From contig NZ_SNZP01000006.1 in assembly GCF_004363805.1 (NCBI RefSeq), forward strand, positions 124,001 to 188,000: a stretch of DNA of 64,000 nt. The letters are read 5' to 3'. A program made the position numbers and the translations under genes. This document shows, piece after piece, positions 3,882 to 24,139 of this stretch. Numbering within the stretch: position 1 is the first letter of the stretch; each line of letters starts with the position of its first letter. Below the pieces are notes generated by a model. That model was not told the DNA's origin and did not search any database. It was given only the letters and a program-made list of their open reading frames with translations. Source of the DNA: Paludibacterium purpuratum. GTDB taxonomy: Bacteria; Pseudomonadota; Gammaproteobacteria; Burkholderiales; Chromobacteriaceae.

Positions 3882-4224
3882 GACAAGCCTCCAGGATATG
3901 GCAATCCGCCCGATACAGGGGCGGGGGCTGTCCTACGCTTTGTATCCCAACAGCGCCGAGTCCTTGCGGATACTCGCAGCCCCCATAGAAGACATGTCGC
4001 GACCACGGGAAAGCCATGAGCCGAGGCTCATGGCGATTGGGACACAAATTTAGGAGCCGTCAGCGTAGGCGGCACCTGAGGCGACGTCGAGCTTACGCGG
4101 TTGCTGTACTCTTTTGGTTTTGTTCATGTTTTTGTCGTAGCGACGAAAATGCGTAAACAGCCATGATGCCGTGGCGGCGAGCGGAAATCTTGATGCCAAT
4201 CTCGCAAAGCCATCAGCAATGGCA
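3882..4224. other. Non-coding stretch at the left border of the tail locus
   Basis: 343 bases without a credible gene. It contains a perfect 9-bp hairpin with a CGAG loop at 4013-4034 (GCCATGAGC / GCTCATGGC), flanked by a longer-range complementarity between TGTATCCCAA (about 3941-3950) and TTGGGACACA (about 4037-4046), so bases 3941-4046 could fold as one unit. A second imperfect stem lies near 4128-4152 (TTTTGTCG / CGACGAAAA). No T-tract makes these clear terminators. No integrase or tRNA is present, and I could not identify an attachment repeat. Confidence 0.4.
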
Positions 4225-4488
4225 TCAGTCCTTCCGAGACATGGCGGCCACCCAGGCCTGCAAGCCGGCCAACCTATCGGCGGTCGCCTTGCAGGCGCCG
4301 TAGTTATCGGCGATGACGACCAGCGCCTGGCTGGCGTCGACCCGTTTGCCGATCGCCATCAGCTTAGGGGCGGCTTGCATCAACTGTGCCGGAGGCATCG
4401 GGAACGATGCCGTTGGCGGCGGCATCGTGGAGCCGCACCCAGCCAAGATCAAGCATGCAGCTAGCGCTGCTGTCTTTGCGGTCGACAT
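4225..4488 (-). CDS. Rz1-like outer-membrane spanin lipoprotein
   Basis: 87 aa with a lipoprotein signal: ALAACLILAGCGS places the lipobox Cys at residue 18, followed by a Pro-rich stretch (MPPPTASFPMPP), as in Rz1 outer spanins. It starts inside the preceding i-spanin gene in another frame (overlap 4364-4488) and runs past its end, the nested Rz/Rz1 arrangement of phage lysis cassettes. Rz and Rz1 span the periplasm and fuse the inner and outer membranes in the last step of lysis. Identification rests on lipobox plus nested position, since Rz1 sequences are poorly conserved. Confidence 0.75.
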   Translation of the reverse strand: MSTAKTAALAACLILAGCGSTMPPPTASFPMPPAQLMQAAPKLMAIGKRVDASQALVVIADNYGACKATADRLAGLQAWVAAMSRKD

Positions 4489-4756
4489 ACTGGATCACCT
4501 CGTCGTGAAGGGTTCGATAAACGGTTTGCGTGTGCTCAGCCGTGGCCGTGGCGCTGGCATCGATGCGCTGCGTGACCGCGTCTTGCCGCTGGATCTGCGC
4601 CAGCCGCGCCTTGTCCTGCAAGTCGGCCTGGCGCGCCGTATCGCGCTCGGCGGCGATGCCGCGCAACGACCAGCCGATCAGCAACACCCCGATCACCACC
4701 AGTAGCAGCACGACTTCACGCCAATAACGGCGCAGCAAAGTCATGAGCGCGATCAT
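4364..4756 (-). CDS. Rz-like inner-membrane spanin
   Basis: 130 aa from ATG 4756, whose ATGA overlaps the stop of the holin-like gene. One N-terminal membrane anchor (about residues 15-34, EVVLLLVVIGVLLIGWSL) is followed by an Ala/Gln/Arg-rich coiled coil (ERDTARQADLQDKARLAQIQ), the layout of Rz i-spanins. The C-terminal part (VIQYVDRKDSSASCMLDLGW) is typical of phage spanins of the P2/R-pyocin type. A longer frame reaching 4906 is only read-through of the opposite reading frame of the upstream gene. Rz1 is nested at its 3' end. Confidence 0.8.
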   Translation of the reverse strand: MIALMTLLRRYWREVVLLLVVIGVLLIGWSLRGIAAERDTARQADLQDKARLAQIQRQDAVTQRIDASATATAEHTQTVYRTLHDEVIQYVDRKDSSASCMLDLGWVRLHDAAANGIVPDASGTVDASRP

Positions 4757-4980
4757 TGCCCGCTCCCCAACTTCTTGCCGAGCCCCAGCCCGGCCAGCAA
4801 GGCCCCTGCCCCAATGCCGTAACCCTGCAGGTCGAAAGCCTTGCCGGTCACGCTGCAGTAGATCTGCAAACCGAGACCGGCCAAGGCGAACACCGCACCC
4901 CAACAATACGAGGGCTCCAGCGTCTGGTTATCGTCGCCGGTCACCGCTTCAAGCCATTTGTGCATAACGATTTCCTCCAT
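4753..4980 (-). CDS. Holin-like small membrane protein
   Basis: 75 aa with two hydrophobic stretches (CWGAVFALAGLGLQIYCSV and GYGIGAGALLAGLGLGKKLG) joined by a short loop, ending in a charged tail, consistent with a small phage holin or holin-associated protein. Two in-frame ATGs (4980 and 4965); the first is preceded by weak, the second by purine-rich sequence. Lies between the endolysin gene, whose end it overlaps by 32 bases, and the Rz spanin gene, with which it shares an ATGA junction. Holin function is inferred from size, topology and context. Confidence 0.65.
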   Translation of the reverse strand: MEEIVMHKWLEAVTGDDNQTLEPSYCWGAVFALAGLGLQIYCSVTGKAFDLQGYGIGAGALLAGLGLGKKLGSGQ

Positions 4981-5584
4981 TCAAAACGCGCTCGGCGGCG
5001 CCGAATAGCGCCAGCCGCTCCGCATAGCCATTGAGCCCGCCGTTGATCGCACGCGTGACGCCGCGCAGGTCGCCGGCATCGGCCAGCGCCAAGCAGCCAT
5101 GGCCGGCGAAATACCAGGCGGCCGACAACGCCGCGTTGGCCGGCAGCTCCAGCCACTCGGGGTGCGCCAGCAGATCCAGCCCCAGCGCTTTGCCGCAGGC
5201 GGCATAACCCGCACAGCCGGTGATCTGCAGCAAACCGCGCCCTCGATAGACCCAGCCATCGCCGCTGGCCTCGTCGCCATTGCCCATGCGGCCGGCGTAC
5301 ACCCGGTTGGCGATCTTCTGCGGCGCCCGGGCGTATTGCGCCGCCAGCGCGGCATCGAAATGCGTCGGAAACGTCGCCAACAGGCCGTCGGCCGAGTAGT
5401 TCAAGTTCTCGACCAAGGCCGACAACCCGGCCGACTCGACGCCCACCTGAGACAAAAACGCCGCGATGCGACGCGGCGTGTTGATCAGGTATTTAGCGCA
5501 AGCGGTCGACAACGACGCCTGCCAGCGCAAGGCCCGCGTCGGCGGACAACCGGTGGCGGTGGAAATCAAGGCGACATCGATCAT
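4949..5584 (-). CDS. Glycoside hydrolase family 19 endolysin
   Basis: 211 aa from ATG 5584 (MIDVALISTATG). Contains the GH19 lysozyme/chitinase-like core: RIAAFLSQVGVESAG with the catalytic Glu, then WVYRGRGLLQITG and the substrate-binding loop, and ITRAINGGLNG near the end. It would cleave peptidoglycan glycan strands after holin opening. No signal peptide. A longer frame to 5764 comes from reading the upstream gene out of frame and was rejected. Start overlaps the stop of the small membrane protein gene (ATGA), so the cassette is translationally coupled. Confidence 0.9.
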   Translation of the reverse strand: MIDVALISTATGCPPTRALRWQASLSTACAKYLINTPRRIAAFLSQVGVESAGLSALVENLNYSADGLLATFPTHFDAALAAQYARAPQKIANRVYAGRMGNGDEASGDGWVYRGRGLLQITGCAGYAACGKALGLDLLAHPEWLELPANAALSAAWYFAGHGCLALADAGDLRGVTRAINGGLNGYAERLALFGAAERVLNGGNRYAQMA

Positions 5585-5760
5585 TGCGGCCCCTTTCCAT
5601 GCAGCGCGCCCCACAACATCGCCAGGCTCGCCGCCAGGCCGACAATCCACTTCAACACGCGGCCGATGAAATTCAACATGCGGATGGCGCGATGCGCCGA
5701 ATCCCAGGTGTCGAGAATCTCCTCCAACCGCCGCTTTTGTTCTTCGGTCAGCTCGGTCAC
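5581..5760 (-). CDS. Small membrane protein of the lysis cassette
   Basis: 59 aa from GTG 5760 (VTELTEEQKRRLEEILDTW). The start is chosen because a strong AAAGGAGG ribosome site on the minus strand (about 5767-5774) sits 6 bases upstream of this GTG; an upstream in-frame ATG (5781) lies before the ribosome site. A charged N-terminal helix is followed by one membrane segment (VLKWIVGLAASLAMLWGAL). It could be a pinholin-type or antiholin partner of the 75-aa protein, or a generic phage membrane protein. It couples to the endolysin by an ATGA overlap and follows an intrinsic terminator at 5783-5805. Confidence 0.65.
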   Translation of the reverse strand: MTELTEEQKRRLEEILDTWDSAHRAIRMLNFIGRVLKWIVGLAASLAMLWGALHGKGPQ

Positions 5761-5782
5761 CCATCGCCTCCTTTCAGGCATG

Positions 5783-5805
5783 AAAAAAGCCGCCCGGGGG
5801 CGGCT
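5783..5805 (-). terminator. Intrinsic terminator before the lysis cassette
   Basis: On the minus strand, AGCCGCCC / GGGCGGCT arms (5788-5795, 5798-5805; effectively 7 bp with a 4-base loop) are followed by six T. Lies between the fibre-accessory gene and the lysis genes. Confidence 0.75.
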
Positions 5806-5825
5806 GGTTGATTGGCCCAAAAGGG

Positions 5826-6206
5826 CTAGGTGTTAGCCGGGTATGGCGGCTTCACCGGTAGCGTGCTCGGAATCGTCTTCGGCTGCGGCTGATTGACGAT
5901 CGACCGCAACGCTGCACGGTATTCCATGAACGTCACCACGTCGGCGGTAGTCAGCGTGGTCTTGCCGAGCGAGACGGCCTCGATGATGCGCTCGACTGTG
6001 ACGCTGGTGTCGGCGAGTGCGGCTTTGGCAGCGGCTTGGTAGCTTGTCCACTGGTCAGCGGCGGTCGGCGCCGGGGGCCAGTCACCAGAAACCCTCTCCC
6101 AGCCTTGTGCAATGGCAAGGCTGCTCATCAACGCCACTTGCGCAGGGTCGGTGTCGTCGAAGCCGTGAATGGCATCGATCGCATCTTTGTAATATTGCAT
6201 AGTCAT
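5826..6206 (-). CDS. Tail-fibre assembly-like protein
   Basis: 126 aa, soluble. The Ala-rich TSYQAAAKAALADTSVTVER region, the LTTADVVTFMEYRAALR segment and the Pro-rich end (LPVKPPYP) match the general build of phage tail-fibre assembly and fibre-accessory proteins, which are encoded directly downstream of fibre genes and help fold or attach the fibre. It lies 5 bases downstream of a fibre gene and is followed by an intrinsic terminator. The role is inferred mainly from position and pattern. Confidence 0.55.
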   Translation of the reverse strand: MTMQYYKDAIDAIHGFDDTDPAQVALMSSLAIAQGWERVSGDWPPAPTAADQWTSYQAAAKAALADTSVTVERIIEAVSLGKTTLTTADVVTFMEYRAALRSIVNQPQPKTIPSTLPVKPPYPANT

Positions 6207-6211
6207 TTTGA

Positions 6212-7057
6212 TTACCTCAGCTCAGCCCACACACTAATCCCGGACACCCCGTTGGACGATAACGAATACCATGCTCCCGGAGGGATCAGCCAAGTGCCGC
6301 CAATGGTAGCGGTTGCAAGGGTCGCCCCTTGGAGAAGGAGCGTCCCGTTGATCGTCATTGCGATGCCAACGGCGGATGTAAGCGTCGCAGCCACATTCGC
6401 AATAATGGGTCTGCCAGTGGTGTTGTAATAAATGGCACCCGCAACTCGACTCGCCACAACATTCTGCCAGGTCTGCCCAACGCCCAGCCCGATCAGGTTT
6501 TCACCAGCAAAGCCACCAACACCGCTACCAACTGTCGGCGCACTGGCCCAAGCCCCTGCCGTTACCTGCGTAACCGTCGTCATGCCGACGATCTTGAATG
6601 CCGCATTGGTTAACGCAGCACTGCTGTACACCACACCAGCACTGTTGGCACCGGTACCGATCGCCGTCGTGCTGATAAGCAACGATTCGTCCAGATTGAT
6701 CGACCCGCTGGTAATATTGACCACACCTAGCGACTCGGTCGCGCCATTCCACAGCGACAACCACACCAGCATGCTCGGATTGCCATTGGTGCTACCCAGC
6801 GTCGCGCCGCTCGGCACGGTCAACCACAAACTAGCGGTGTTGGTCGTTTGAGTGGATGGCCCGCCGCTTTGCGCCAAGCTGCGGTAAACCTTCGGGTACG
6901 GCGCGAGCACCCCGGTGATGGCATTCGCGTTCACGCTGGCGGTGAAGGGCGAGATCGATCCGGACGAGCCGTTGTTGGTGAACTGCATGACATCCGCGCC
7001 GCCGATTTGCAGAGCCCCCATGACGCCGGAGGCGTCACTTCTGATTCCAGTAGTCAT
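6212..7057 (-). CDS. Phage tail fibre / receptor-binding protein
   Basis: 281 aa, Gly/Ser/Thr/Asn-rich, low in charged residues, as in trimeric beta-structured fibres. N-terminus MTTGIRSDASGVMGALQIGG resembles short phage fibre subunits. Sections such as AIGTGANSAGVVYSSAALTN suggest beta-sandwich repeats, and the C-terminal half (GGTWLIPPGAWYSLSSNGV) may be a head domain. Probable receptor-binding or auxiliary fibre of the tail particle. Base composition is noticeably more A/T-rich than the flanking structural genes, suggesting exchange of this module. Confidence 0.65.
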   Translation of the reverse strand: MTTGIRSDASGVMGALQIGGADVMQFTNNGSSGSISPFTASVNANAITGVLAPYPKVYRSLAQSGGPSTQTTNTASLWLTVPSGATLGSTNGNPSMLVWLSLWNGATESLGVVNITSGSINLDESLLISTTAIGTGANSAGVVYSSAALTNAAFKIVGMTTVTQVTAGAWASAPTVGSGVGGFAGENLIGLGVGQTWQNVVASRVAGAIYYNTTGRPIIANVAATLTSAVGIAMTINGTLLLQGATLATATIGGTWLIPPGAWYSLSSNGVSGISVWAELR

Positions 7058-7066
7058 CGTTGCCCC

Positions 7067-7534
7067 TTAATTACCAATAGCAAACCAGAAGTAATAGCCA
7101 CTAGCAGCGGTATTACTAAATAAAGTCATCTGAGTTTTGGTTGGATTTCCAATATTTGCTCCTCTGGCGGAATTGTCACTACCACTGCAGGAGGACACTC
7201 CTGCGACAAAGGCAGTAGGAAATGGCGTAGGGAACGTGATCGTGGTCGAGCTATTCCCCGCTATCAAAGCAGATGTGCAAAACTGCAAAATGAACCCACC
7301 CGGCAATTGAATAGCCGTGCCATTTGCGTTGGTGACCACGCCCGACCCCGCCCCGAGCGAGCCTAGGCCGAGCTGCCCGAGTGAGTTAATCATGGCAACG
7401 GGTACTGACGGCGTACCCGGCGCCCCCATGTAAAGGCTGGCCGTGCCATTATTGGCACTAGCGTCAAGCACCAGATTATTCGCGGCGGTACCGCTGGCGC
7501 CGACCTGGATTTGAGAACCGAGGACTTTGCTCAT
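7067..7534 (-). CDS. Short tail fibre with gp53-like C-terminal domain
   Basis: 155 aa. N-terminus MSKVLGSQIQVGASGTAANN is of the short-fibre type; the C-terminal half (GTAIQLPGGFILQFCTSALI to SGYYFWFAIGN) matches the gp53-like tail-fibre C-terminal domain, a receptor-binding fold with a LPxGxIxQ opening strand and a closing FWxAIG strand. Its ATG abuts the stop codon of the upstream fibre gene. A/T-richer than the neighbouring tail genes. Likely a target-binding subunit. Confidence 0.7.
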   Translation of the reverse strand: MSKVLGSQIQVGASGTAANNLVLDASANNGTASLYMGAPGTPSVPVAMINSLGQLGLGSLGAGSGVVTNANGTAIQLPGGFILQFCTSALIAGNSSTTITFPTPFPTAFVAGVSSCSGSDNSARGANIGNPTKTQMTLFSNTAASGYYFWFAIGN

Positions 7535-8053
7535 TTATGCGACCCTCGCGATGGTGAACTGACAGCATTGGGTAAATGTGCCGCTTACGGCCCCATTGTT
7601 ATGGGCACGGATCACTGCCCCTACCGGTAGCCAGCCAGTCCATCCACAACTCATTGGCGTGTTGGTGGAGTAAACCGTATTTGCCGCTAACATATTTGCG
7701 GCATTGAGCAGGTAAATCGGCGTCGTCAACTGACTGGAGTTCAGTGAAAGTCCCATGTTTGCATTCGTGCCACTGAATTGATCCGTATAACTAATTGAAT
7801 AAACCCCTGCCGTGTTGATCGAGAAAGACGCCCCATTAACCGTGCTGTCGATATAAGAAATATCTGTCCCTTGGTTTACCTGCATGTTCGAGAACCGCCT
7901 GATCATGACGTTGGTCGAGCCATAGCCGTTCGCTGTATTTAACTGCACCATGCTTTGCGGCGTGGTCACATTCGGGGTACTGCCAAACGTCGCCGTCCCC
8001 GACACGTTCAATTGCGGCGTGCTCACGCCGCTACCGGTCACAATCGTCGCCAT
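7535..8053 (-). CDS. Short tail-fibre protein
   Basis: 172 aa, beta-rich, with few charges. N-terminus MATIVTGSGVSTPQLNVSG; the rest (VYSISYTDQFSGTNANMGLS, later VGAVIRAHNNGAVSGTF) looks like a jelly-roll, perhaps C1q/TNF-like, often seen at phage fibre tips. Directly abuts both the 325-aa fibre gene upstream and the 155-aa fibre gene downstream. Function inferred from composition and cluster position. Confidence 0.6.
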   Translation of the reverse strand: MATIVTGSGVSTPQLNVSGTATFGSTPNVTTPQSMVQLNTANGYGSTNVMIRRFSNMQVNQGTDISYIDSTVNGASFSINTAGVYSISYTDQFSGTNANMGLSLNSSQLTTPIYLLNAANMLAANTVYSTNTPMSCGWTGWLPVGAVIRAHNNGAVSGTFTQCCQFTIARVA

Positions 8054-9031
8054 TTAGTTCACCACCCATACGGAGCCGGACGGGATCGTCACCGTCACGC
8101 CATTGTTGATCGAAATCGGCCCGGCGCTTTGTGCGTTGCTATTGGCCGGGATGCTGTAGTTGGTCGTGACCACCTGACCGTTCAATTCGAAAATCTGGTC
8201 GTTGCCGCCGCCGGTTGCGCCGCCGCCGATGTTGCCCCAGTTCATCGCGTTCGGATAAAAGCCTTCGAACTGATTGGTATCGGTATTGAAACGAACCGCC
8301 GGTCCGGCCGGCGCCGACGTGCGCTGCGCGCTATTGCCGGCGGGAAGCTGTGCGGAACCGGTCGGCGCGTCACGAGAGACAGCGTTCGGCAACGTGGCAA
8401 AGAAAGGCGCAGCGGGATAGATAGCGATATTCGCCGCCGTGATCTGCGTCTGGCCATAAGCCACCGTCACCACATAGGCACCGGCAAAACCACTATCCGG
8501 CGCCGGCGTGGTCTGCGTGCCGGTACTGGCCGCCGTGCCGGCCTTGGCCTGCACCAGCGCCACGCCTTTGCGCACGGTGTTTTGCGCCTGGCTGTTGTTG
8601 CCCTGCCCGGCGAACTGCTGCGCCGGGTTGGCGCTGTTGTAGTACGGCAGCATGGTGGCGTTGCTGTCGCTGTCCTGATAGCCGATCTGGATCAGGTAGT
8701 TGGCCGACTGACCGCTGACGGTCGGCGCGGCCAGCGTCAGCGCGCTGGCGTCGAGTGCCATGCCCTGCTTGACGATTTGGTGCGCGGTGTCGGCGCCAAG
8801 GGTGGAGAAAGCAGTCGAGTCGACGTTCTGCAAGCTATAGATCTCGCCCGGCGCCACGTTGACTTGCAGCGAAGCCGGACTGGTCGGCGCGACGGCGAAG
8901 CCGTTGATCAAAGTGTTGGAACCCAACACCGCGGCAGACAGCTTGGACAGGCCGAGCATGGCGTCCTTGCTCATCTGCAGCAGCGTGGTTTCAGGCAGGA
9001 TCTGCCCGGGATAGACGATTTGACGGTCCAT
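8054..9031 (-). CDS. Tail fibre with baseplate-attachment N-terminus (short paralogue)
   Basis: 325 aa. The first about 210 residues (MDRQIVYPGQILPETTLLQM, later GQITAANIA-type strands) are clearly paralogous to the N-terminal part of the 685-aa fibre encoded upstream; by eye about two thirds or more of the positions are identical. That shared part is probably the baseplate-docking and shaft-proximal region. The remaining about 115 residues are different and end in NGVTVTIPSGSVWVVN, so this protein may be a short or alternative fibre. It follows an intrinsic terminator (9045-9067) and is abutted by two short-fibre genes. Confidence 0.75.
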   Translation of the reverse strand: MDRQIVYPGQILPETTLLQMSKDAMLGLSKLSAAVLGSNTLINGFAVAPTSPASLQVNVAPGEIYSLQNVDSTAFSTLGADTAHQIVKQGMALDASALTLAAPTVSGQSANYLIQIGYQDSDSNATMLPYYNSANPAQQFAGQGNNSQAQNTVRKGVALVQAKAGTAASTGTQTTPAPDSGFAGAYVVTVAYGQTQITAANIAIYPAAPFFATLPNAVSRDAPTGSAQLPAGNSAQRTSAPAGPAVRFNTDTNQFEGFYPNAMNWGNIGGGATGGGNDQIFELNGQVVTTNYSIPANSNAQSAGPISINNGVTVTIPSGSVWVVN

Positions 9032-9089: not shown

Positions 9090-9257
9090 TTAATTGCTGG
9101 TCGGTACCGGCTGAATGGTATTGCCCGCTTTGACCCATGCGGCCACGTCGGCGCGGGTGGCGAGGCACGATTCCATCGAGCCGTCAGGATAGGTACGTAT
9201 GACCACAGCTTTCGTCGTGTCGGTGTACTGCCATGCGGTTGGTGTGCCTTGCATCAT
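9090..9257 (-). CDS. 55-aa fibre-associated protein
   Basis: Short gene found by reading between the two large fibre genes: MMQGTPTAWQYTDTTKAVVI start, then RTYPDGSMESCLATRADVAA and the end AGNTIQPVPTSN. Its ATG overlaps the stop of the 685-aa fibre gene (CTATGATG junction), so translation is coupled. The WVKAGNTIQP ending resembles the N-terminal element of tail-fibre assembly proteins. It is followed by the terminator at 9045-9067. Probably a fibre accessory or chaperone fragment; a second in-frame ATG at 9254 is equally possible. Confidence 0.6.
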   Translation of the reverse strand: MMQGTPTAWQYTDTTKAVVIRTYPDGSMESCLATRADVAAWVKAGNTIQPVPTSN

Positions 9258-11311
9258 AGTTGGGCCCCCGTGAAAACGATTTTGCCGGATACGCTGTTGA
9301 AGTAAGTGTAGGACGACATTCCAGTGGAGGAATTTAATCCACCTCCGGTAAATGTAATCAATGCAGCATCGACACCTGCGAATGAAAAGCCAGCGACTGC
9401 AGGAGATACAGCCGCTGACTGGGTAAAGGTAAAGTGAGACGGAGAGGATATAACGGCTCCCGTAACGGGTATACGCGTCTGCACTTTAAAAATACACGCC
9501 ATGTTGACCGTGTTTGTCAGCGTGTACAGCACAGACGGCAACGTAGATGTCGCGTTACTAGCGGCCAGACATGGCAAATACCGCTGACACCGCGCCAGTT
9601 CCGCTTCCGGCGTCGGCCGCTCGAATGCCGTGCAGAACGGCCCGACTTCAAGTTGTACGCCAGTTACTTTGAACGTTGCCCCGGCCATCTGCGCGATCTG
9701 GGTCGTGCCGCTGGCGCCAACGATATTACCGTTTGACCAAGCACCCGGCGTCGCGACGGTGGCACTGCCTTGGCCCAAACCGAAAATCACTTGTAAGCCC
9801 CCACCCGTACCCGTCAATATCCAACTACCCGTTGTATCGCCGGGAATATTGGGGATTTGGATCAGCGTATCCGCGCCAGCTACCGGAATGTTGAATGCAA
9901 CAGGATAGGAACGGGTTCCCATCGGGTTACGCAGACAGACGGAATACAACCCAGCCACCGAGGCGTTGACGACAAACTGCAGGCTAACCGGCTTCGCGTT
10001 CGACGTGCCCCAGGCAAGCGCAGTTAAATTTTGTGACTCGATATCCTGTGTCAGGTTGATGTTGTCTGACGCAACCAGGGTGACGGCCGATGCCACGGTG
10101 AACTGAGCATAGGCGTCAAAGCCCATGGAGGTCGGACCGGCCACTTGCTGGAAGTTAATCTTGCCCGCCTGTGTTGCGCCAAATTGCCACTGATCGAGAA
10201 CAAATGTGCCGCTAGCCGGCGTTTGGCTAGCATTCCCATACTGCTGCGCCACGCGCATCGCACCATTCACCAACAAGTTACGGAACGACAGCGGCTCGGA
10301 GGTGAACTGCCCAAGCTGCATAGCCTGCTGACTCTGCGTCGCAGGCGCCACCTGCTCCGCCCCGCCGGTACAGAACAGCAGGATGTACCCGCCCGTGCTG
10401 CCGATCGAGCTATTCCACTGCGCCCAGCAGTCGCCGTTGGCGATGATTTCCCCGCCCTGCAGCGCCGCGTGTGCGCCGCCAACCAGCTGTGCGGCACCCA
10501 GTCCGTCGTTGAGCGTGGCCGGGCCGGTGTTGGCGTTTTTAGCCTTGAAGCGCAGCACCTGGCCTTCGGCGCGCGCTGTCAACGCGGGCGACAGGTTCAC
10601 GGCGTAGGCATTGGCGCTGCCGCTATCGAGGCCGAACGACAAGCCTTCGGTCTGGATGGCTTGCAGAAGGCCGCAAGGTAGCAACGGCGCCCCGGCAAAA
10701 GGCGCGATGTTGGCCGCGGTGATCTGGCTCTGCCCATAGTTCAGCGTCACCACATAGGCACCGACGAAGCCGGCGTCGGGTGCCGGGGTGCTTTGGCTGC
10801 CGCTGGCGGCGGCGATGCCGGCCTTGGCCTGCACCAGCGCCAGGTCTTTGCGCGCGGTGTATTGCGGCAGGTTGTTGTTGCCCTGGCCGGACAGCGGCTG
10901 TTGCGGGTTGGCGATGTTGAAGTACGGCAGCACCGCGGCGTTGACGTCTTGTTCCTGAAAGCCGATCTGAATCAAATAGTTGACCGACTGGCCGTAGGCG
11001 GTGGGCGCGGTGAGCGTCAGCGAGACGGCGTCGAGCGCCAGGCCCTGCTTCATCACGCTGTGCGCGCTGTCGGCGCCAAGGCTGCCGAAGGCGTTGTTGT
11101 CGAGGTTCTGCCAGCTGTAGATTTCGCCCGGCGCGACCACCACCTGCAGCGAGGCGGGGTTGCTCGGCGCGGTGGCGAAGCCGTTGATCAGGGTGTTGCC
11201 GCCGAACAGCGCGGAAGACAGTTTGGCCAGGCCGAGCATGGCGTCCTTGCTCATTTGCAGCAAGGTGGTGTCGGGCAGGATCTGGCCCGGATAGATAAGT
11301 TGGCGGTCCAT
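9254..11311 (-). CDS. Large tail fibre protein
   Basis: 685 aa, the main candidate receptor-binding fibre. N-terminus (MDRQLIYPGQILPDTTLLQM) is shared with the 325-aa paralogue and should dock to the baseplate. After about residue 340 comes a phage structural module opening SFRNLLVNGAMRVAQQYGNA and containing FVLDQWQF, typical of fibre or capsid-decoration carbohydrate-binding domains, with the conserved FERPTPEAELARCQRYLP near residue 585 and a beta-rich C-terminus. Only gene of this cluster long enough for a full R-type fibre. Preceded by a terminator at 11323-11342. Confidence 0.82.
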   Translation of the reverse strand: MDRQLIYPGQILPDTTLLQMSKDAMLGLAKLSSALFGGNTLINGFATAPSNPASLQVVVAPGEIYSWQNLDNNAFGSLGADSAHSVMKQGLALDAVSLTLTAPTAYGQSVNYLIQIGFQEQDVNAAVLPYFNIANPQQPLSGQGNNNLPQYTARKDLALVQAKAGIAAASGSQSTPAPDAGFVGAYVVTLNYGQSQITAANIAPFAGAPLLPCGLLQAIQTEGLSFGLDSGSANAYAVNLSPALTARAEGQVLRFKAKNANTGPATLNDGLGAAQLVGGAHAALQGGEIIANGDCWAQWNSSIGSTGGYILLFCTGGAEQVAPATQSQQAMQLGQFTSEPLSFRNLLVNGAMRVAQQYGNASQTPASGTFVLDQWQFGATQAGKINFQQVAGPTSMGFDAYAQFTVASAVTLVASDNINLTQDIESQNLTALAWGTSNAKPVSLQFVVNASVAGLYSVCLRNPMGTRSYPVAFNIPVAGADTLIQIPNIPGDTTGSWILTGTGGGLQVIFGLGQGSATVATPGAWSNGNIVGASGTTQIAQMAGATFKVTGVQLEVGPFCTAFERPTPEAELARCQRYLPCLAASNATSTLPSVLYTLTNTVNMACIFKVQTRIPVTGAVISSPSHFTFTQSAAVSPAVAGFSFAGVDAALITFTGGGLNSSTGMSSYTYFNSVSGKIVFTGAQL

Positions 11312-17889: not shown

Positions 17890-18117
17890 TCAGTTGAAGT
17901 CGGCCAGGGTCGACTGGCTGATAGCCTGCAATAAATCGCCGGTGCTGGCGGTCAGCGCCGGCTCGTAGGTCGCGTCCGACGGCTCGGTCAAAAAGCCGCC
18001 GTAGCGTTGATCCAATAAAGCGATGCCGCGCGACACCGCTTCCTCCATGTGCTGCTCCTGGCCGTCCATGACGGCGCTCAGGTGCGCGGCCAAGGCGCCG
18101 AAACTATCCATTGGCAT
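17890..18117 (-). CDS. Small tail-locus protein of unknown function
   Basis: 75 aa (MPMDSFGALAAHLSAVMDGQ...). Starts inside the 3' end of the frameshifted chaperone extension (14-base overlap) and ends 16 bases before the tape measure gene. Helical, acidic C-terminus. I do not recognise a family; its place between chaperone and tape measure suggests an assembly or minor tail role. Confidence 0.65.
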   Translation of the reverse strand: MPMDSFGALAAHLSAVMDGQEQHMEEAVSRGIALLDQRYGGFLTEPSDATYEPALTASTGDLLQAISQSTLADFN

Positions 18118-18678
18118 GTGCTTGCTCCTTGAATTTCATCGCACTCCAGTCCCATTCGTTGCCTTCGATCTCGCTGAAGACAATCGACATCGCCACGCGC
18201 TCATGCGCGGCCAGACGCTCGCACTCGAAGACCCGATCGAAAGGAACCCCGTTTTTCAGCAGCCAACAGCGGCCGCGAAAATCGGGGTTCTGCGTCAGTT
18301 TTTTGCGGCGGCCAACTCGGCATCGCTACGCGCCTGTTCCAGCCGCGCCAACAGGTGATCGTTGACGGCGACCATGCCCTCGGTGCCGAGCTGTTTGAGC
18401 ATGTCCTCGATCTGGGCGATGCTGGCCGGGAAGCCGAAGAAATCGTCGTCGATGTGCGCCACCATGGCCGCCGGCAAGGCGAAGCCGTTCATGTACACCG
18501 CGTTGGTGGACAGCTCGCTGCCGACCGCCATGACCAACCGCGCTTGTTGCAGCGGATCGAGTTCGCGTAGTTGGATGACGCGGCCCAGGCTGTCGGTGAC
18601 ACGCTGAAATTGCGGTTGGCGGGTTTGGCGGGTGTCGGTGTTGATATCGGATTGTTCGCGCAAGGTAACGGTATTCAT
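18104..18678 (-). CDS. Tail assembly chaperone GT, -1 frameshift product
   Basis: The G frame ends GCA AAA AAC TGA. The heptamer A AAA AAC (18304 down to 18298) in the proper phase is the classic -1 slippery site. After slippage translation continues CTG ACG CAG and so on for 64 codons to TAG at 18106-18104, giving about 191 aa. The extension has no start codon of its own and has good coding features (NPDFRGRCWLLKN, FSEIEGNEWDWSAMKF). Long-tailed phages (lambda G/GT, P2 E/E+E') make such a minor fusion, which loads tube subunits on the tape measure. Not experimentally shown here. Confidence 0.8.
18295..18678 (-). CDS. Tail assembly chaperone G (zero-frame product)
   Basis: 127 aa from ATG 18678 (MNTVTLREQSDINTDTRQTR), with GAGAGGA upstream as ribosome site. 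Contains LGRVIQLRELDPLQQARLVM and a helical C-terminus (IAQIEDMLKQLGTEGMVAVN), similar to Mu-like/P2-like tail chaperone G proteins located between tube and tape measure. A frame extending to 18762 lacks support. Preceded by an intrinsic terminator (18761-18792), followed by the frameshift extension. Confidence 0.8.
   Translation of the reverse strand: MNTVTLREQSDINTDTRQTRQPQFQRVTDSLGRVIQLRELDPLQQARLVMAVGSELSTNAVYMNGFALPAAMVAHIDDDFFGFPASIAQIEDMLKQLGTEGMVAVNDHLLARLEQARSDAELAAAKN
18298..18304 (-). promoter_or_regulatory. -1 ribosomal frameshift slippery heptamer A AAA AAC
   Basis: Seven bases in exact X XXY YYZ phase relative to the G frame, one codon before its TGA. The -1 frame stays open for 64 codons downstream. 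GC-rich sequence follows, which could form the stimulatory structure, though I did not identify a defined pseudoknot. Confidence 0.8.
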
Positions 18679-18818: not shown

Positions 18819-19244
18819 TTACACCATCAGACGGCGGCGGGCGGTAAAGGTCACCGACTGACGGATGGTCTTGTCGCCCTCTTTCTTGCCCGCGCCTTCC
18901 AGCTTCAGGATCACGTTGGTGTAACGGAAGGTCGAAGTGCTGCCGTCGACTTCCTGGATGGTCTCGGTGATGGTGGCCGGCGGCTGCGCCACACCGTTGT
19001 AATAGTCGGACTCGAACTGCGCCCACCATTTGTCCAGGGTGGCGTCGGTACGCTCGACCTCGAAAGTACCGCTCCAGCCCTTGGGCACCAACAGCTCGTC
19101 GGTTTGGCCGTTGAGCGGGGTGATTTCGGTACTGGTCGTTTTCGGCTTGGAATCGAAGGACATGATCTTGCTGATACGCATCGGACCGTTCGGGGTATTG
19201 ATGTCCAGCGACACGTCCTTGCCGGTGTTGAATCCACCTAGCAT
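18819..19244 (-). CDS. Tail tube protein
   Basis: 141 aa directly after the sheath gene. KDVSLDINTPNGPMRISKIM, then the STEITPLNGQTDELLVPKGW segment and ATLDKWWAQFESDYYNG fit Mu gpM-like tail tube proteins; the fold is a beta sandwich that stacks as hexameric rings around the channel. The YNG and ITETIQEVDGSTSTFRYTNV sections are typical. Flanked by intrinsic terminators on both sides, which is unusual for a gene needed in high copy. Confidence 0.82.
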   Translation of the reverse strand: MLGGFNTGKDVSLDINTPNGPMRISKIMSFDSKPKTTSTEITPLNGQTDELLVPKGWSGTFEVERTDATLDKWWAQFESDYYNGVAQPPATITETIQEVDGSTSTFRYTNVILKLEGAGKKEGDKTIRQSVTFTARRRLMV

Positions 19245-19287: not shown

Positions 19288-19301
19288 TAAAGTGGGTTCG
19301 C

Positions 19302-20870
19302 TCAGCTGCGCGGGTTGTTGGCCACGGTAATGCTGACCGACTGACCGCCTTCCAGATTGATGAGGAAGTAGCGCACCACGGACAAGTACTTCACCTGCAC
19401 GTCGGCCTGCATATAACCCAGCGCCACGCGGCTGTCCGGGTTGTTCTGCTTGTCGATCTGCACCGAGAAGGCCGGCCCGCCGTTCGGGTCGCCGATCATG
19501 TTCTGGTCGACCAGGTTCTGCAGGAAGCTTTCGATGGTCGACTTCACCTGGCGGCGCAGGTCGGCGGTATGCAATTGGCCGACCACCCAACCGAACGACG
19601 CGGCCAGCGTCAAGCTGAGGTAGTTGGTCATACGGGTGTAGTTGTCGCCGTTCTGCGCCGGGTTGCTGGCGCAGTTGAGGCCGCTGCGGTGGCCGAAGTA
19701 GCTGCCGCCCGGACACGGATTGGTGATCACATCCAGCCGCGCGGTATTGATGGCGCCGATCTCGCCGTTACTGTACGGCTGTTGCGCCAGGCTACGCTGC
19801 GTGCCGGTGGCGTTCGACAAGGACTTGTTCAACACCGACAAGTGCGGCGCCAGACCGGCAACACGCGCGGCCGAGAAGGTCGCCGGCGCCAGCATGCGGT
19901 TTTGGCCGTTGACGGTGTCGAACCAGTACACCCAGTCCCCTACCAGCACTTTGAGGCCGTAACCGTCCACGCCGGCAGTGTTGAGACTGCCGGATACCGT
20001 GGCGTAAGACGCGCCGGCTGGGCCCTGGGTGACCACGTAGGCGCCCTCGCCCTGACCATAGCTCAGCATAGCCGGCCACTGCGTCGAATCGGTCAGATCG
20101 ACCAGGTTGACCACTTGGGCGTTGGCACCGCGCAAGGCGTACATGCCCTTACGCGCCGGAGCGGTCACGCCATCGGCCCCCACCAGCATGGCATCGGTCA
20201 CGCCGGCCGCACCATCGCTGCCGCCGGTAAAGGTCACGCTTTGCGTGCCGCCGGTCAGTTGCGGCGCCAAGCTCGACGCGCCCACGGTCGCCACCACCAG
20301 TTGCGACGGGCCGCGAATACCGCTGATGCCGTTATTGACGGCATTGACCAGGCTCTGCCACAACGCCGCGCCGCTGCCGACCAGGTTGTCGAAAATTTCG
20401 GGCTGCACGCCGGGCATGGTGACAATCAGCTTGAAGCTGTTGGCCGCCGTGCCGGCAGTCAGCGCCGCCGACAGCGTGTTACCGAGCGAGCCGGTATACA
20501 TGGCGGTCAGGGTGGCACCGGTCGCCGGCGTGGCGGCCGAGTCCTTCAGCGTGGTGGTGGCCGCGGCGTCGGTGCCGTCGGTCACGCGCACCGCACGGAG
20601 ATTGGATGCGCCAAGCTGGATCGATACCGCGATGGCGGTGGCCAGGTCGTACTTGCGCACTTGCTGTACCCCCACCTTCAAGGCGGCGTCCGCCGGCGAG
20701 CCGATCAGCATCGGGCTGTTGACCGCGCCCCAGGAGGCTACGCCGACGATGCCGAGAATATCGGTCGGCACGCCGTTGATGTAGCGGGTCTTGGGCGGAA
20801 CTTGCTGTACATAGAGATCGGGCGCGGACAGCGCGGCGGTGTTCAAACTGCCTGCCGGATAAATAGGCAT
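19302..20870 (-). CDS. Contractile tail sheath protein
   Basis: 522 aa, the diagnostic gene of a contractile tail. N-terminal PDLYVQQVPPKTRYINGVPT and DILGIVGVASWGAVNSPMLI match the opening of Mu gpL-type sheath proteins, the variable middle has repeated beta strands, and the C-terminal domain (SFLQNLVDQNMIGDPNGGPA ... ALGYMQADVQVKYLSVVRYF, ending in QSVSITV) is the conserved polymerisation domain. Sheath contraction drives the tube through the envelope. Single copy, intact. Confidence 0.93.
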   Translation of the reverse strand: MPIYPAGSLNTAALSAPDLYVQQVPPKTRYINGVPTDILGIVGVASWGAVNSPMLIGSPADAALKVGVQQVRKYDLATAIAVSIQLGASNLRAVRVTDGTDAAATTTLKDSAATPATGATLTAMYTGSLGNTLSAALTAGTAANSFKLIVTMPGVQPEIFDNLVGSGAALWQSLVNAVNNGISGIRGPSQLVVATVGASSLAPQLTGGTQSVTFTGGSDGAAGVTDAMLVGADGVTAPARKGMYALRGANAQVVNLVDLTDSTQWPAMLSYGQGEGAYVVTQGPAGASYATVSGSLNTAGVDGYGLKVLVGDWVYWFDTVNGQNRMLAPATFSAARVAGLAPHLSVLNKSLSNATGTQRSLAQQPYSNGEIGAINTARLDVITNPCPGGSYFGHRSGLNCASNPAQNGDNYTRMTNYLSLTLAASFGWVVGQLHTADLRRQVKSTIESFLQNLVDQNMIGDPNGGPAFSVQIDKQNNPDSRVALGYMQADVQVKYLSVVRYFLINLEGGQSVSITVANNPRS

Positions 20871-20882
20871 GGCTTCCTCCAG

Positions 20883-20907
20883 AAAAAAGCCGCCAAAACG
20901 TGGCGGC
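20883..20907 (-). terminator. Intrinsic terminator before the sheath gene
   Basis: Minus-strand stem GCCGCCA / TGGCGGC (20889-20895, 20901-20907) with five-base loop and six T. Confidence 0.8.
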
Positions 20908-20919
20908 GGTCGGTTGCGA

Positions 20920-21066: not shown

Positions 21067-21074
21067 GGGAGTCC

Positions 21075-21896
21075 TCAGTTGTTACGGGTAAACAAGGGTT
21101 GCCCGGAGAGGGCGTTACTGCCGTTGAGTTGCACGGCGACGACTTGCGTTGCGCCAGCCGTGATGGTGGTGGCGTAATCGATGTTGTATGCCAGGTCGCG
21201 GCGGTACTGATTGGCCACCGCCGGCGGCTCGGATTGGATGGTGTAGGCGTACTGCAAGATGCCGGCCGAACCATCGGGGAAAGCGATGTTGCCGATGCCG
21301 GCAAACGCGGTGTCGAGCGCCTTGGCGATCTGGTCGCGCAAGGCGGTGCTCGGCGCCCACACCGAGAGCATGAAGCGCTTCTCCTGCCGGCGAAGTTCGC
21401 TCACCACCTTACCGGCGGCGCCGACGCGCACCAGCGGATTGGCACGCGGTGGCAAGGTCACCGTCGCCCCGCTGCAGCTGGCGCCCGGAATCATGGCGGC
21501 CAGGGCAACGGCAATGCTCGCCAGCGTGTCGGCCGGCTGCACCGCATAGACATAGTCGATGCCGGCGAGCTGGATCAGCACGTTGTGCGGACCCGCACTG
21601 CCGCCCAGGGTGACGACATTGCCTTGCAAAGCGGCGGTCAGCGTCGGTGCGGGCGCTTGCTGCACGCTCCAGGCTTGGCCCAGGAAACGGCTGGATGGCC
21701 GCTCGCGCGGTAAGGAACACACCGAAACGTGCGCGACGCCCGCCGGCAGGTCGTTGGCCAGGTCGGCCGACGACGGCCAGCCGCTATAGATTTTGATGTT
21801 GGCGCCGGTCAGGCTCGGCTGGCCGCTGCCATTCGGGTACAGCACTGTGCTCGCCTGGGTGACCAGGAACGACAGCACATCCGACAAATCTGCCAT
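21075..21896 (-). CDS. Phage tail protein (possible tail terminator/completion protein)
   Basis: 273 aa. N-terminus MADLSDVLSFLVTQASTVLY, then a beta-rich region and the segment RRQEKRFMLSVWAPSTALRD, IAKALDTAFAGIGNIAFPDG and EPPAVANQYRRDLAYNIDYA, which resemble phage proteins located just before the sheath gene. Because the first genes of tail modules in Mu/P2 include the neck or tail-terminator proteins, a role in capping the sheath/tube end is plausible; without a head, such a cap is still needed. Strong AAAGGAG ribosome site precedes ATG 21896. Confidence 0.65.
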   Translation of the reverse strand: MADLSDVLSFLVTQASTVLYPNGSGQPSLTGANIKIYSGWPSSADLANDLPAGVAHVSVCSLPRERPSSRFLGQAWSVQQAPAPTLTAALQGNVVTLGGSAGPHNVLIQLAGIDYVYAVQPADTLASIAVALAAMIPGASCSGATVTLPPRANPLVRVGAAGKVVSELRRQEKRFMLSVWAPSTALRDQIAKALDTAFAGIGNIAFPDGSAGILQYAYTIQSEPPAVANQYRRDLAYNIDYATTITAGATQVVAVQLNGSNALSGQPLFTRNN

Positions 21897-22113
21897 GGGA
21901 ATCTCCTTTACGGGGTAACGCTGCGCCGGCGAGCCAGCGCACTAACAGTGCGCGATCCAGCACCAGCGCGACGCCGGTATCGGCATAGCGCAGTGCGATG
22001 TCGTGCCGCGCCAGCGCCTCGACCACCGCCGCGCGGCCAGAGGGCAAGCGCAGGCGCTGGCCAAGCCGCACCGGCAGGGCCTCCAGCCGGGGAACGCCAA
22101 ATTGGTAATGCAT
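21784..22113 (-). CDS. Small tail-locus protein of unknown function
   Basis: 109 aa if read to its stop, which lies 113 bases inside the next gene; the first about 70 residues (MHYQFGVPRLEALPVRLGQR, ... ALVLDRALLVRWLAGAALP) look coding, while the overlapping tail does not. ATG at 22113. It is the first gene after the three tandem terminators. No family recognised; the long overlap may mean the annotated stop is not the biologically important part, or that a frameshift exists. Confidence 0.45.
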   Translation of the reverse strand: MHYQFGVPRLEALPVRLGQRLRLPSGRAAVVEALARHDIALRYADTGVALVLDRALLVRWLAGAALPRKGDSHGRFVGCAVVPGHPGEHSAVPEWQRPAEPDRRQHQNL

Positions 22114-22152
22114 GACGGTTCTCGCTTCGCCCCGCGGCGGCGCGCCGGGCAT

Positions 22153-22179
22153 AAAAAAAGCCCCGCGAAAACGCGGGGC
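22153..22179 (-). terminator. Tandem terminator 3 of the leader
   Basis: Minus-strand 8-bp stem GCCCCGCG / CGCGGGGC (22160-22167, 22172-22179), AAAA-type loop, seven T. Last of three consecutive terminators between the Q-like gene and the structural operon. Confidence 0.88.
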
Positions 22180-22191
22180 CGTAGGGGAAAT

Positions 22192-22218
22192 AAAAAAACC
22201 CGGCACGGTGGCCGGGTT
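22192..22218 (-). terminator. Tandem terminator 2 of the leader
   Basis: Minus-strand 8-bp stem AACCCGGC / GCCGGGTT (22197-22204, 22211-22218) followed by a T-run of about seven. Confidence 0.85.
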
Positions 22219-22230
22219 TGTTCTGGACGC

Positions 22231-22258
22231 AAAAAACCAGCCATCCGGCTGGTTTTTT
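22231..22258. terminator. Tandem terminator 1 of the leader (bidirectional)
   Basis: Perfect 12-bp arms AAAAAACCAGCC / GGCTGGTTTTTT (22231-22242, 22247-22258) around a four-base loop. Works as a terminator on either strand; first met by polymerase coming from the Q-like gene. Confidence 0.88.
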
Positions 22259-22316
22259 ACTCGCCACTGAGGCGGAATCAAATTGTGAGTCTATTATACA
22301 TGATCTTCGGCGATTG

Positions 22317-22823
22317 TCAAGACATTTTCGTCGAAATTCGTTTTTTAGCACGATTCCATACCGCCATGGTCAATCGCGCCACTTGCGCGTCGTAATCGGC
22401 GATCGCCAAGCCCAGCTGGCGGCACACCACCCGCGGGTGACTATCGCGATAGTGGCCATCCTGGCCGCGGAAGCCGCGATAATGCGCCAGCAGCAGCGCC
22501 TGCTCCTTGCTATTGCAGCCGTCGGTGATGCGTTGCCGCCCGCCGCCCAGCGAAACCTTCATTGCGCCATAGGTGATGGCCGCCTCGACCGCCAGCGCCA
22601 GCCGTTCGTCGAGCGGCGCCGAGCTCGCACCGGCAGACCGGCAGGCCAGGCAAGGCTCAAGTGCTTCATAGCATTGCTCGCAGCGCTGGCTGCGAAAGCG
22701 CCCTTCCACGCCTTGCGCACGACCGCGCGTCGCACCTAGGCGCTGCCAGCGCCCCCACATTTCCAAAGCCTCCACCGCATCGACGCCCGCCATCCGAACC
22801 ACCGAGAGATCCGCCAGATTCAT
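22317..22823 (-). CDS. Putative Q-like antitermination protein
   Basis: 168 aa from ATG 22823, placed after GAAAGGGG. N-terminal VEALEMWGRWQRLG resembles the W-G-x-W start of phage antitermination Q and the related DUF1133 family. A CEQC...CLAC pair of CxxC motifs (about residues 54-72) could bind zinc, as in lambda Q. The C-terminal half (SKEQALLLAHYRGFRGQDGH, then VCRQLGLAIADYDAQVARLT) looks like the LLxxHY plus helix-turn-helix part of these proteins. Lying just before three tandem terminators and the late operon, it is well placed to load on RNA polymerase and allow read-through. The family call is motif-level and needs a profile search. Confidence 0.5.
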   Translation of the reverse strand: MNLADLSVVRMAGVDAVEALEMWGRWQRLGATRGRAQGVEGRFRSQRCEQCYEALEPCLACRSAGASSAPLDERLALAVEAAITYGAMKVSLGGGRQRITDGCNSKEQALLLAHYRGFRGQDGHYRDSHPRVVCRQLGLAIADYDAQVARLTMAVWNRAKKRISTKMS

Positions 22824-22987
22824 CATGCCCCTTTCCGATTTCGTGCAATATGTGGACGATGCTGCAGTTAGCACTACCAAAAAAGGCAAACTATGGTTTA
22901 ATGATAACTGCACAGCAAGTTATAAACGTTATACATATCTTAGCTGTAGTTAAGTTTTTATGCAAATACTTTCTTGTGGTTAACTTT
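22824..22987. promoter_or_regulatory. Divergent repressor/Q control region with repeated operator-like motif
   Basis: A/T-rich 164-base region between divergent genes. The octamer TGCAGTTA occurs at 22863-22870, inverted (TAACTGCA) at 22905-22912, and as variants TGTAGTTA at 22945-22952 and TGTGGTTA at 22975-22982, the last just before the repressor start. A symmetric TATAAACGTTATA lies at 22921-22933. This is what a CI/Cro-like multi-site operator looks like and suggests autoregulation plus control of the Q-like gene. No clear Shine-Dalgarno precedes the repressor start, so its mRNA may be leaderless. Confidence 0.6.
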
Positions 22988-23692
22988 ATGCAGACGCTTT
23001 CCGAACGCATCCTTTGGCGACTCGAACAAACCGGCAAAAAGAAGGCAGGGCTCGCCCGCTATGCCGGCATCGCCGCGCCATCCGTCACCAAGTGGATCAA
23101 TGGCGAAACCAAGCGACTGGAAGGCTCGAACCTGCTCAAGGCGGCCGAGTACTTGGAGTGCGATCCGGCCTGGCTTTCCACCGGCGAGGGCGACTGGCAG
23201 GTCAAGGCCTTGCTGCGGCCGATCCAGCTATGGGAACAGGAAGAGGAGTTGTCGGAAGACCAATATGTGTTCATTCCCTCACTGGAAGTGAAGCTGTCAG
23301 CCGGTGCCGGCACCGCCATCTGGCACCTGGACGAAGCCGGACAACGCCAGGCTTACACGCGCAAATGGGCATCGCGGGTCGGCATCGACCCGACCTGCGC
23401 CGCCACCATGGTGGTCAGCGGCAGCAGCATGGAGCCGCGCTATCAGGACGGCGATAGCATCGTGGTCGATTACTGCCAACGCGATACCATCATCGACGGC
23501 AAGGTGTACGCCATCGCGCTCAATGCGGAAGTGTTCATCAAACGCCTGTTCAAAGAAGTGGATGGCTCGATCCGCATCGTCAGCGACAACACGGACAAAA
23601 TCCGTTACCCGGATAAGATCGTCTCGCCGCAGTTCATGGATCGCCTGCAGATCATCGGCCGCGTGGTCGCACTGGCCGGCAGCGCGACCTAG
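22988..23692 (+). CDS. CI-like XRE-S24 repressor of the tail locus
   Basis: 234 aa from ATG 22988 (MQTLSERILWRLEQTGKKKA). N-terminal helix-turn-helix (GLARYAGIAAPSVTKWINGE) binds DNA. Middle LSAGAGTA supplies an Ala-Gly self-cleavage site; VVSGSSMEPRYQDGDSIVVD carries the nucleophile Ser and NAEVFIKRLF the catalytic Lys of the S24/LexA peptidase fold. Such repressors cut themselves when RecA is activated, so this gene should tie particle production to DNA damage, as PrtR does for pyocins. Divergent from the Q-like gene. Longer upstream starts were rejected because they run through the operator region. Confidence 0.92.
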   Translation: MQTLSERILWRLEQTGKKKAGLARYAGIAAPSVTKWINGETKRLEGSNLLKAAEYLECDPAWLSTGEGDWQVKALLRPIQLWEQEEELSEDQYVFIPSLEVKLSAGAGTAIWHLDEAGQRQAYTRKWASRVGIDPTCAATMVVSGSSMEPRYQDGDSIVVDYCQRDTIIDGKVYAIALNAEVFIKRLFKEVDGSIRIVSDNTDKIRYPDKIVSPQFMDRLQIIGRVVALAGSAT

Positions 23693-23726
23693 CCTTCGAC
23701 TTCGAACCTCATAAACCCAAGACACA

Positions 23727-23792
23727 GCGGCCGCCCGGCAAATATCATGGGAAAAGCCGAAAGCTTTTATCCCAAGATTTGCCGGGCGGCCG
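23727..23792. repeat. Long inverted repeat (31-base arms, CGAAA loop)
   Basis: Arms start and end with 17 perfectly complementary bases (GCGGCCGCCCGGCAAAT at 23727-23743, its complement at 23776-23792); the inner parts (about 14 more bases to GGGAAAAGC / GCTTTTATCCC) pair imperfectly. The element lies between the repressor and the XRE gene. No T-tract follows, so it is not a standard terminator; it could be a REP-like element, an RNA processing signal or a small mobile-element footprint. Confidence 0.75.
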
Positions 23793-23812
23793 CCCTTCCC
23801 CTTCTTCGCGTC

Positions 23813-24139
23813 ATGAGTGGCTTCCAAGACCGTTTCCGCATCGAAAAAGCAAAGCTTCGACTCTCCGCGAAAGATATCGCCCGACAAGTCGGCGTCTGCC
23901 AGCAGACCGTATACGACTGGCTAGCCGCGCGACAACACCCACGGATGCACCATCTGAGCTCGCTGGCTGCCCTGCTCAACGTATCGGCCGACTACCTGCT
24001 GTACGGCACGCACGATTCGCAGCGCCAGCAATTGCTGCAGGACCTATCCGCCACCCTCCCCCAGCTCTCGACCTATCAAATCACCATCCTGCTGCACGCC
24101 GCGCTGGAATTTCGCCGCCGCGAGCGGCAAAACCCATGA
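23813..24139 (+). CDS. XRE-family transcriptional regulator
   Basis: 108 aa from ATG 23813 (MSGFQDRFRIEKAKLRLSAK). A Cro/CI-type helix-turn-helix (DIARQVGVCQQTVYDWLAAR, then LAALLNVSADYLLYGTHDSQ) occupies the first about 65 residues, and a short helical tail follows. An upstream ATG at 23747 lies inside the inverted repeat and is unlikely. Codirectional with the repressor; may be a second regulator of the tail locus or an independent gene. Confidence 0.8.
   Translation: MSGFQDRFRIEKAKLRLSAKDIARQVGVCQQTVYDWLAARQHPRMHHLSSLAALLNVSADYLLYGTHDSQRQQLLQDLSATLPQLSTYQITILLHAALEFRRRERQNP

Follow-up and report, generated by a model that had tools for sequence, protein, structure and literature searches.

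The 64,000-nucleotide stretch of DNA analysed here, called the window, comes from the genome of Paludibacterium purpuratum (G000) and carries a phage tail locus at 4.2-24.1 kb. Scans with PHROG and Pfam profiles reveal a complete contractile-tail operon on the minus strand (~4.2-21.9 kb), preceded by its regulators. The sheath sets it apart from F-type tailocins, which have none, and an intact myophage of the phiKX1 group is not what we see, as no terminase, portal or coat gene lies upstream of the tail. By its gene content, the locus very probably encodes an R-type tailocin. Such a contractile tail would have come from a temperate myophage of the phiKX1 kind, domesticated through loss of the whole head module, and would most likely serve as a weapon against related bacteria.

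All features of the operon and its control region are on the minus strand unless otherwise stated. The first tail gene is tail-terminator-like by position (21075..21896, 273 amino acids (aa); phrog_13532, 2.6e-71), and is followed by the sheath (19302..20870, 522 aa; phrog_23, 1.8e-44), a tube protein recognised by position and size (18819..19244, 141 aa; phrog_12993, 7e-48) and the tail assembly chaperone G (18295..18678; phrog_20383). A small open reading frame (ORF) of 75 aa without PHROG match (17890..18117) fills the gap to the tape measure (16200..17873, 557 aa), which is assigned from its position, its length and a weak match to phrog_1272 (1.1e-4), and a 323-aa tail protein (15225..16196; phrog_21362, 9e-85, function unknown) lies between the tape measure and the gpD-like baseplate hub (14146..15228, 360 aa; phrog_52, 3.2e-29, and PF24032). 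Then come the gpV-like spike of ~212 aa (13505..14143; phrog_9992, and PF04717 on a longer ORF), the gp25-like baseplate wedge (13140..13502; phrog_975, phrog_120), baseplate J (12009..13136; PF04865, 1.4e-34) and a gpI-like gene (11355..12008; phrog_26379, 8.6e-71) homologous to the gene that follows J in phiKX1. The families of the first tail gene, the tube, the chaperone and the gpI-like protein are of unknown function, and these genes are named from their position and the phiKX1 gene order; the sheath, hub, spike, gp25-like protein, J, fibres, endolysin and Rz/Rz1 are placed by PHROG or Pfam matches. The chaperone gene ends in A AAA AAC TGA (near 18300), a canonical -1 slippery site. A stable hairpin follows (z -2.9, equalled by 2 of 200 shuffles), and the frame of the GT extension is open. 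Slippery site, hairpin and extension are all kept in the sister genome G042. The extension DNA (~18120-18300, minus strand) is far more conserved between the two species than its neighbours, perhaps on account of the frameshift hairpin, or of recombination.

The distal part of the operon holds fibre 1 (9254..11311, 685 aa; phrog_4492) and fibre 2 (8054..9031, 325 aa), which share an N-terminal domain at 71% identity. Three small fibre-region genes (6212..8053) come next, at 7535-8053 without match, at 7067-7534 with PF21882 and at 6212-7057, with PHROG matches among them, and then a fibre assembly-like protein (5826..6206; phrog_188, 3e-4). The lysis cassette comprises a GH19-type endolysin (4949..5764; phrog_181, 7.8e-84, and PF00182), an Rz-like inner spanin (4364..4906; phrog_8821, 6e-10) and an Rz1-like lipoprotein overlapping it (4225..4488; phrog_1267, 8e-10). 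A hydrophobic ORF of 75 aa at the holin position (4753..4980), which matched no family in the Pfam and PHROG scans, is a candidate for the holin.

A free contractile tail could also be an extracellular contractile injection system (eCIS) that delivers a protein toxin, and the same genome does have an eCIS on another contig. The fibres of the locus are however of phage type, lysis genes and an S24 repressor belong to it, and the Pfam scan of its genes found no eCIS_core or CIS_TMP domain, AAA+ ATPase or cargo, so that we regard this explanation as extremely improbable. The eCIS-type system on the other contig (G000:C1; L086 10263-15512 and L091 4451-11993) has a sheath (PF17482/PF04984), gp19 tube, hub/spike, CIS_TMP tape measure and eCIS_core.

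Upstream of the tail genes of the putative tailocin, a CI-like repressor of 234 aa is encoded on the plus strand (22988..23692; phrog_4, 3e-44, and phrog_6201), and its helix-turn-helix (HTH) and S24 domains (PF00717, 3e-18, on a longer ORF) suggest that it is self-cleaving. It is 95% identical to its G042 copy, with a ratio of nonsynonymous to synonymous change (dN/dS) of 0.04. A second HTH regulator of 130 aa (23747..24139, plus strand; phrog_4/phrog_8) has 79% identity to its G042 copy. Divergent from the repressor is the 169-aa regulator p169 (22317..22826; 83% identity in G042, dN/dS 0.18), by position a possible analogue of the Q antiterminator. Behind it stand a promoter, TTGACA-16-TATAAT, that agrees with the consensus in 12 of 12 bases and whose -35 hexamer overlaps the p169 stop codon (22293..22320), three tandem intrinsic terminators (22159..22254), a leader ORF (21784..22113) and finally the late operon. 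This is the order of regulator, promoter, terminator and late operon in lambda-Q-type antitermination, where the lambda elements are Q, pR' and tR'.

The terminator stretch (22150-22292) folds with z -7.5 (none of 200 shuffles as good). A site scan gave 2 promoter-like sites (>=9/12) against 1.0 in shuffled sequence, and 7 terminator-like sites against 3.3; as shuffles yield similar sites, the array and its conservation count for more than the scan numbers. Both promoter hexamers are identical in G042 and all three hairpins are kept. A terminator precedes the leader in nine of the nine loci examined, and in eight of them (the exception is G002) a promoter-like match of 8-12 does so too. The regulator p169 itself has no PHROG match, in Pfam it reaches no more than a weak similarity below the cutoff to a CXC domain, and its only relatives are in the window's own IMG/VR record and the sister locus, with none in phages; the regulator of one relative has a sub-cutoff match to sigma region 4. 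An AlphaFold model of p169 was too weak to be used (predicted local distance difference test, pLDDT, 52).

We picture the system as follows. DNA damage would lead to self-cleavage of the S24 repressor, p169 would then be made and act on RNA polymerase at the strong 22.3 kb promoter, and transcription could in a lambda-Q-like manner pass the three terminators into the tail, fibre and lysis operon. Tails would assemble to the length set by the tape measure and be released by holin, endolysin and spanins, whereupon the fibres may bind related bacteria and the sheath drive the tube through the envelope.

A preliminary description, made from the window's sequence, had named these parts from the sheath to the self-cleaving repressor, and profile matches and position bear it out, including the G/GT chaperone, the HxH motif of the spike (HTHH near the C-terminus) and the presumed self-cleaving repressor. 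It had also noted a deviating base composition in the fibres, and a lower guanine plus cytosine content is visible in part of the fibre region. Coordinates needed mending for the spike, the hub, the repressor and the second HTH gene; its holin-like gene is represented by the hydrophobic 75-aa candidate. Missing from its list were p169, the sigma-70 promoter, the three terminators, the leader ORF and the N-terminal domain common to the two fibres.

The closest described phages point to the ancestry. Among 50,697 phage records the sheath matches three, Komagataeibacter phages phiKX1 and phiKX2 (41.6%) and an Alicyclobacillus phage (26.9%). From these sequence matches the ancestor is a barely described group of temperate myophages, phiKX1-like and neither P2 nor Mu, whose members also include prophages in Aquitalea, Pseudomonas, Burkholderiales and Acetobacteraceae. 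phiKX1 (LC644975) shares tail genes and their order with the window (tblastn matches for 11 of the 22 locus queries), but has an integrase, terminase, portal and coat, none of which was found in the window. The acetic acid bacteria phages among which phiKX1 is named are described as mitomycin-inducible with contractile tails, as far as the consulted part of that paper goes (PMC8566455). We collected relatives as 50 loci from a scan of genome contigs and the best 80 of 323 IMG/VR relatives. The headed loci have several portal families (the phiKX1 type, phrog_145, phrog_2662/phrog_12), and hence this tail pairs with several heads.

In headed relatives, terminase, portal and coat stand directly upstream of the equivalent tail genes, and since the heads occupy this position, their absence in the window is informative. 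The module is cleanly missing, so that the leader of the late operon is followed at once by the tail genes. A small leader ORF lies upstream of the terminase or the portal in the headed G002, G004, G043 and G001, and in the window, G042, G039 and G040 its homologue extends into the opening 8 to ~113 bases of the first tail gene. The homology covers the first ~46 aa and is direct to G004 (5e-4) and G040, and via G040 to G002, G043 and G001. The phrog_145 portal was found at the tail locus of the headed controls G002, Aquitalea and P. fluorescens HK44, and a genome-wide search found none in six headless genomes; nor does the window's genome match the portal or coat of G002. The portal matches in headless genomes are to phrog_12, on another contig in G000 (its sole portal match), 1.9 Mb away in G039, and ~25 kb upstream on the same contig in Rugamonas aquatica, and terminase matches lie on other contigs or far away. 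The claim of the preliminary description that head and packaging genes are absent, which it proposed to check by profile searches in locus and genome, has thus stood, and its reading of an R-type tailocin gains support as the likely one when headlessness is judged against relatives with heads at the equivalent position. As for the integrase and replication genes that it also found wanting, no scanned ORF of the locus matched an integrase, for which no dedicated search was made, and the absence of replication genes is judged by the lack of such matches among the scanned ORFs.

Iterated hidden Markov models for several head types were applied to 138 loci, among them near-copies and the IMG/VR record of the window itself. 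Where the sheath is preceded by more than 5 kb, as in 102 loci, portal or coat was found in 92; the other 36 have less than 5 kb there, and 11 of these still show a head. The ten loci without portal or coat are the window, G042, G039, G040, two from Rugamonas, L154 and L161 from IMG/VR, and L039 and L181, and the last two keep a connector gene and were left out of the headless set. Loci in Rhizobium (L027), Paraburkholderia (L059) and Ralstonia (L057) that were headless by phiKX1 queries were rejected, as portals of other types are present.

The tail could in principle be packaged in trans, i.e. supplied to the heads of another prophage. Terminase, portal and capsid-like genes do occur in a second prophage of the genome, and in R. 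aquatica a siphophage-like prophage with a portal is situated ~25 kb upstream of the headless locus. The connector genes of the tail's own family (KX480 and KX520 homologues) are however also missing. The other prophages seem unrelated and have long tape measures of their own, and in R. rivuli the same headless locus occurs without such a neighbour; we think that this alternative is very unlikely. The R. aquatica portal lies among terminase-, capsid- and long tape-measure-like ORFs (by order and length) that end before the repressor of the headless locus, and in R. rivuli genes read as folP- and glmM-like are found upstream instead. The second prophage in the window's genome (G000:C2, ~312-325 kb, L089) is separate, with terminase-, portal-, protease- and capsid-like genes by order and one phrog_12 match.

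Whether the locus is kept can be judged from G042, a genome labelled Paludibacterium, Chromobacteriaceae, which agrees with the Neisseriales host of the preliminary description. There a headless locus follows the same pheS-pheT-ihfA-merR-tRNA-Pro block, which answers the comparison of the chromosomal site in relatives that had been suggested. The G042 contig ends in the fibre region, and the comparison stops before the other flank and the lysis genes. In the 20 genes compared, the window's copies have no internal stop, and dN/dS is 0.04-0.26 in 17 of them, 0.37 in the tape measure and in the leader, and 0.57 in fibre 1; the synonymous distance is 0.25-0.8, and above 1.1 in three small fibre-region genes. 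These ratios support the view that the core genes are under purifying selection and that the locus is kept, not decaying. Both a fixed chromosomal site and variable fibre tips were found in the two species. G039 and G040 have both flanks of their headless locus in common, apart from an additional ~9.6 kb that G040 carries in one of them.

A defective prophage remnant, with its head module deleted and the rest decaying without function for the host, would be easy to obtain, since a single deletion suffices to lose the head; no scanned ORF resembles an integrase, and other elements too are seen beside tRNA-Pro in relatives. Against it are the locus in a second species at this synonymous distance with purifying selection on most genes, the conserved promoter-terminator array, and the fact that headlessness is common to two species in each of three lineages. 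We hold a remnant to be unlikely, and long-term domestication, as the preliminary description argued, fits the second species at the same site and the low dN/dS.

The place after tRNA-Pro(ggg) (window 25318-25394) varies in the genus: G041 (L099/L102) seems by ORF reading to have a different contractile-tail prophage there, and in G039 (L101) only 1.7 kb separates tRNA-Pro from the next shared gene. A BrnT/BrnA toxin-antitoxin pair (24586-25129, minus strand) sits between the tail regulators and tRNA-Pro in the window, without match in the examined G042 region. A duplicated tRNA-Pro end was considered as an attachment scar and dropped, the best match of 12 bases being unconvincing.

Some points weigh against a tailocin of this kind, which is recognised here from gene content. 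The head genes of the genome's other prophage make packaging in trans conceivable, and endolysin and spanins lie outside the comparison with G042, whose contig ends before them. Its tape measure of 557 aa is only modestly shorter than the 632 of the nearest headed relatives. Finally, neither Pfam nor PHROGs reveal a kinship of p169 to a Q or other antitermination family, nor do profiles link it to the regulators of the sister lineages, and antitermination is for that reason deduced from the layout. Shortening of the tape measure is not used as a mark of domestication, as differences are small (557 and 502 in headless loci against 632 in headed ones, 631 against 656, and 613 against 633 and 641, with G039 and L062 excluded) and several distant headed loci are shorter.

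The head appears to have been lost repeatedly. Eight tail genes were used for a careful tree (29 rows, of which two were not scored). It needs three changes between headed and headless, and among 200 bootstrap trees none had a single change (5-95% range 3-3). The lineages are Paludibacterium, Pseudogulbenkiania, with headed Aquitalea as sister, and Rugamonas, with a headed Herbaspirillum and a Burkholderiales metagenome-assembled genome as sister. A quick seven-gene tree with 112 rows, of which 103 are headed and 9 headless, brings in a fourth lineage, L161/L162 from IMG/VR, and its starred branches force four changes. L161 and L162 are identical over their overlap, and L161 has host-like genes upstream, by reading. 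Parsimony alone cannot separate loss from gain; each headless group is surrounded by headed forms. From the trees, headless tails appear to have come from this phage family at least four separate times. The Rugamonas loci (L061/L062) have a phage replication-type gene (phrog_22470) beside the repressor, perhaps an earlier stage of domestication.

Windowed identity of fibre 1 between the window and G042 is ~90% over 200 aa and then falls to 23-38%, and fibre 2 is 83% identical throughout; the tip of fibre 1 has been replaced between the species. A search with the first 200 aa of fibre 1 went through 39 genomes or records, and the count covers fibres that share this N-terminal domain. Two copies are present in the window, G042, G039, G040 and the record of L161, and one copy in both Rugamonas and in all 30 measurable headed loci. 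The latter are 22 IMG/VR records, G002 (counted once, across the chromosome origin), G043, four Pseudomonas, L046 and L042, all of which extend 4.1 kb or more past the beginning of the fibre gene; the count leaves out G004 and the two loci of G001, which lie at contig ends. Two fibres are thus found in 3/4 headless lineages versus 0/30 headed loci (Fisher p 0.0007, or p 0.001 against 26 groups at 95% identity), where p is only a guide because the headed loci do not count as independent. A domain tree of 28 rows, 16 of them headed, places the copies of each headless lineage together, so the doublings look separate. Rugamonas goes against a strict doubling rule, with a single fibre copy, the replication-type gene kept and, in R. 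aquatica, a separate headed prophage just upstream.

On balance, and with some reservation, we favour the idea that tailocins have repeatedly arisen from this myophage family. The head module would lie between the tail and a late switch that is sufficient in itself, as a block that can be taken out, such that one clean deletion gives a controllable weapon, at least four times, and the fibre, freed from infection, would then have been doubled to give two target specificities per locus. The repeated head loss with doubling of the fibre is the surprising part. Headed and headless forms of one family stand side by side four times, which makes the change from phage tail to weapon testable, in the genes lost, the late switch kept and the doubling of fibres. 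In the virus catalogue IMG/VR, loci of this headless kind figure among the viral contigs; one record of 20,857 bases (IMGVR_UViG_2770939604_000002; L103, L105) is the window's own headless locus, with sheath and p169 100% identical, catalogued as viral.

The usual description of a tailocin is that of an isolated domestication of a P2-, Mu- or lambda-like phage, and pyocins are controlled by the activator PrtN. The titles and opening lines of abstracts found by literature searches mention no tailocin from the phiKX1 group, no comparison of fibre number between headed and headless forms and no tailocins in Chromobacteriaceae, where the present locus suggests that they exist. Independent origins of tailocins, tailocins with several fibres and Q genes in a tailocin are known before, as the consulted parts of two papers state (PMC12090994, PMC13030884). 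In the locus of enterocoliticin, a proven R-type tailocin of Yersinia enterocolitica, the tail is preceded by a CI repressor and by two genes that carry the annotation antitermination protein Q (PMC13030884), a precedent for our locus, whose regulator is a Q analogue by layout. The injection apparatus of enterocoliticin resembles phage Mu and not phiKX1, and the consulted part of that report compares no headed sister loci (PMC13030884). R-type pyocins, derived from P2, and the Mu-like R-type syringacins are headless contractile tails of independent origins (PMC12090994, in the part consulted), and differ in that their phage ancestor is not phiKX1-like. More than one fibre gene is also reported, in the same part, for a tailocin of Pseudomonas chlororaphis (PMC12090994), whereas here a single phage family shows the doubling in three of its headless lineages and in none of 30 headed relatives.

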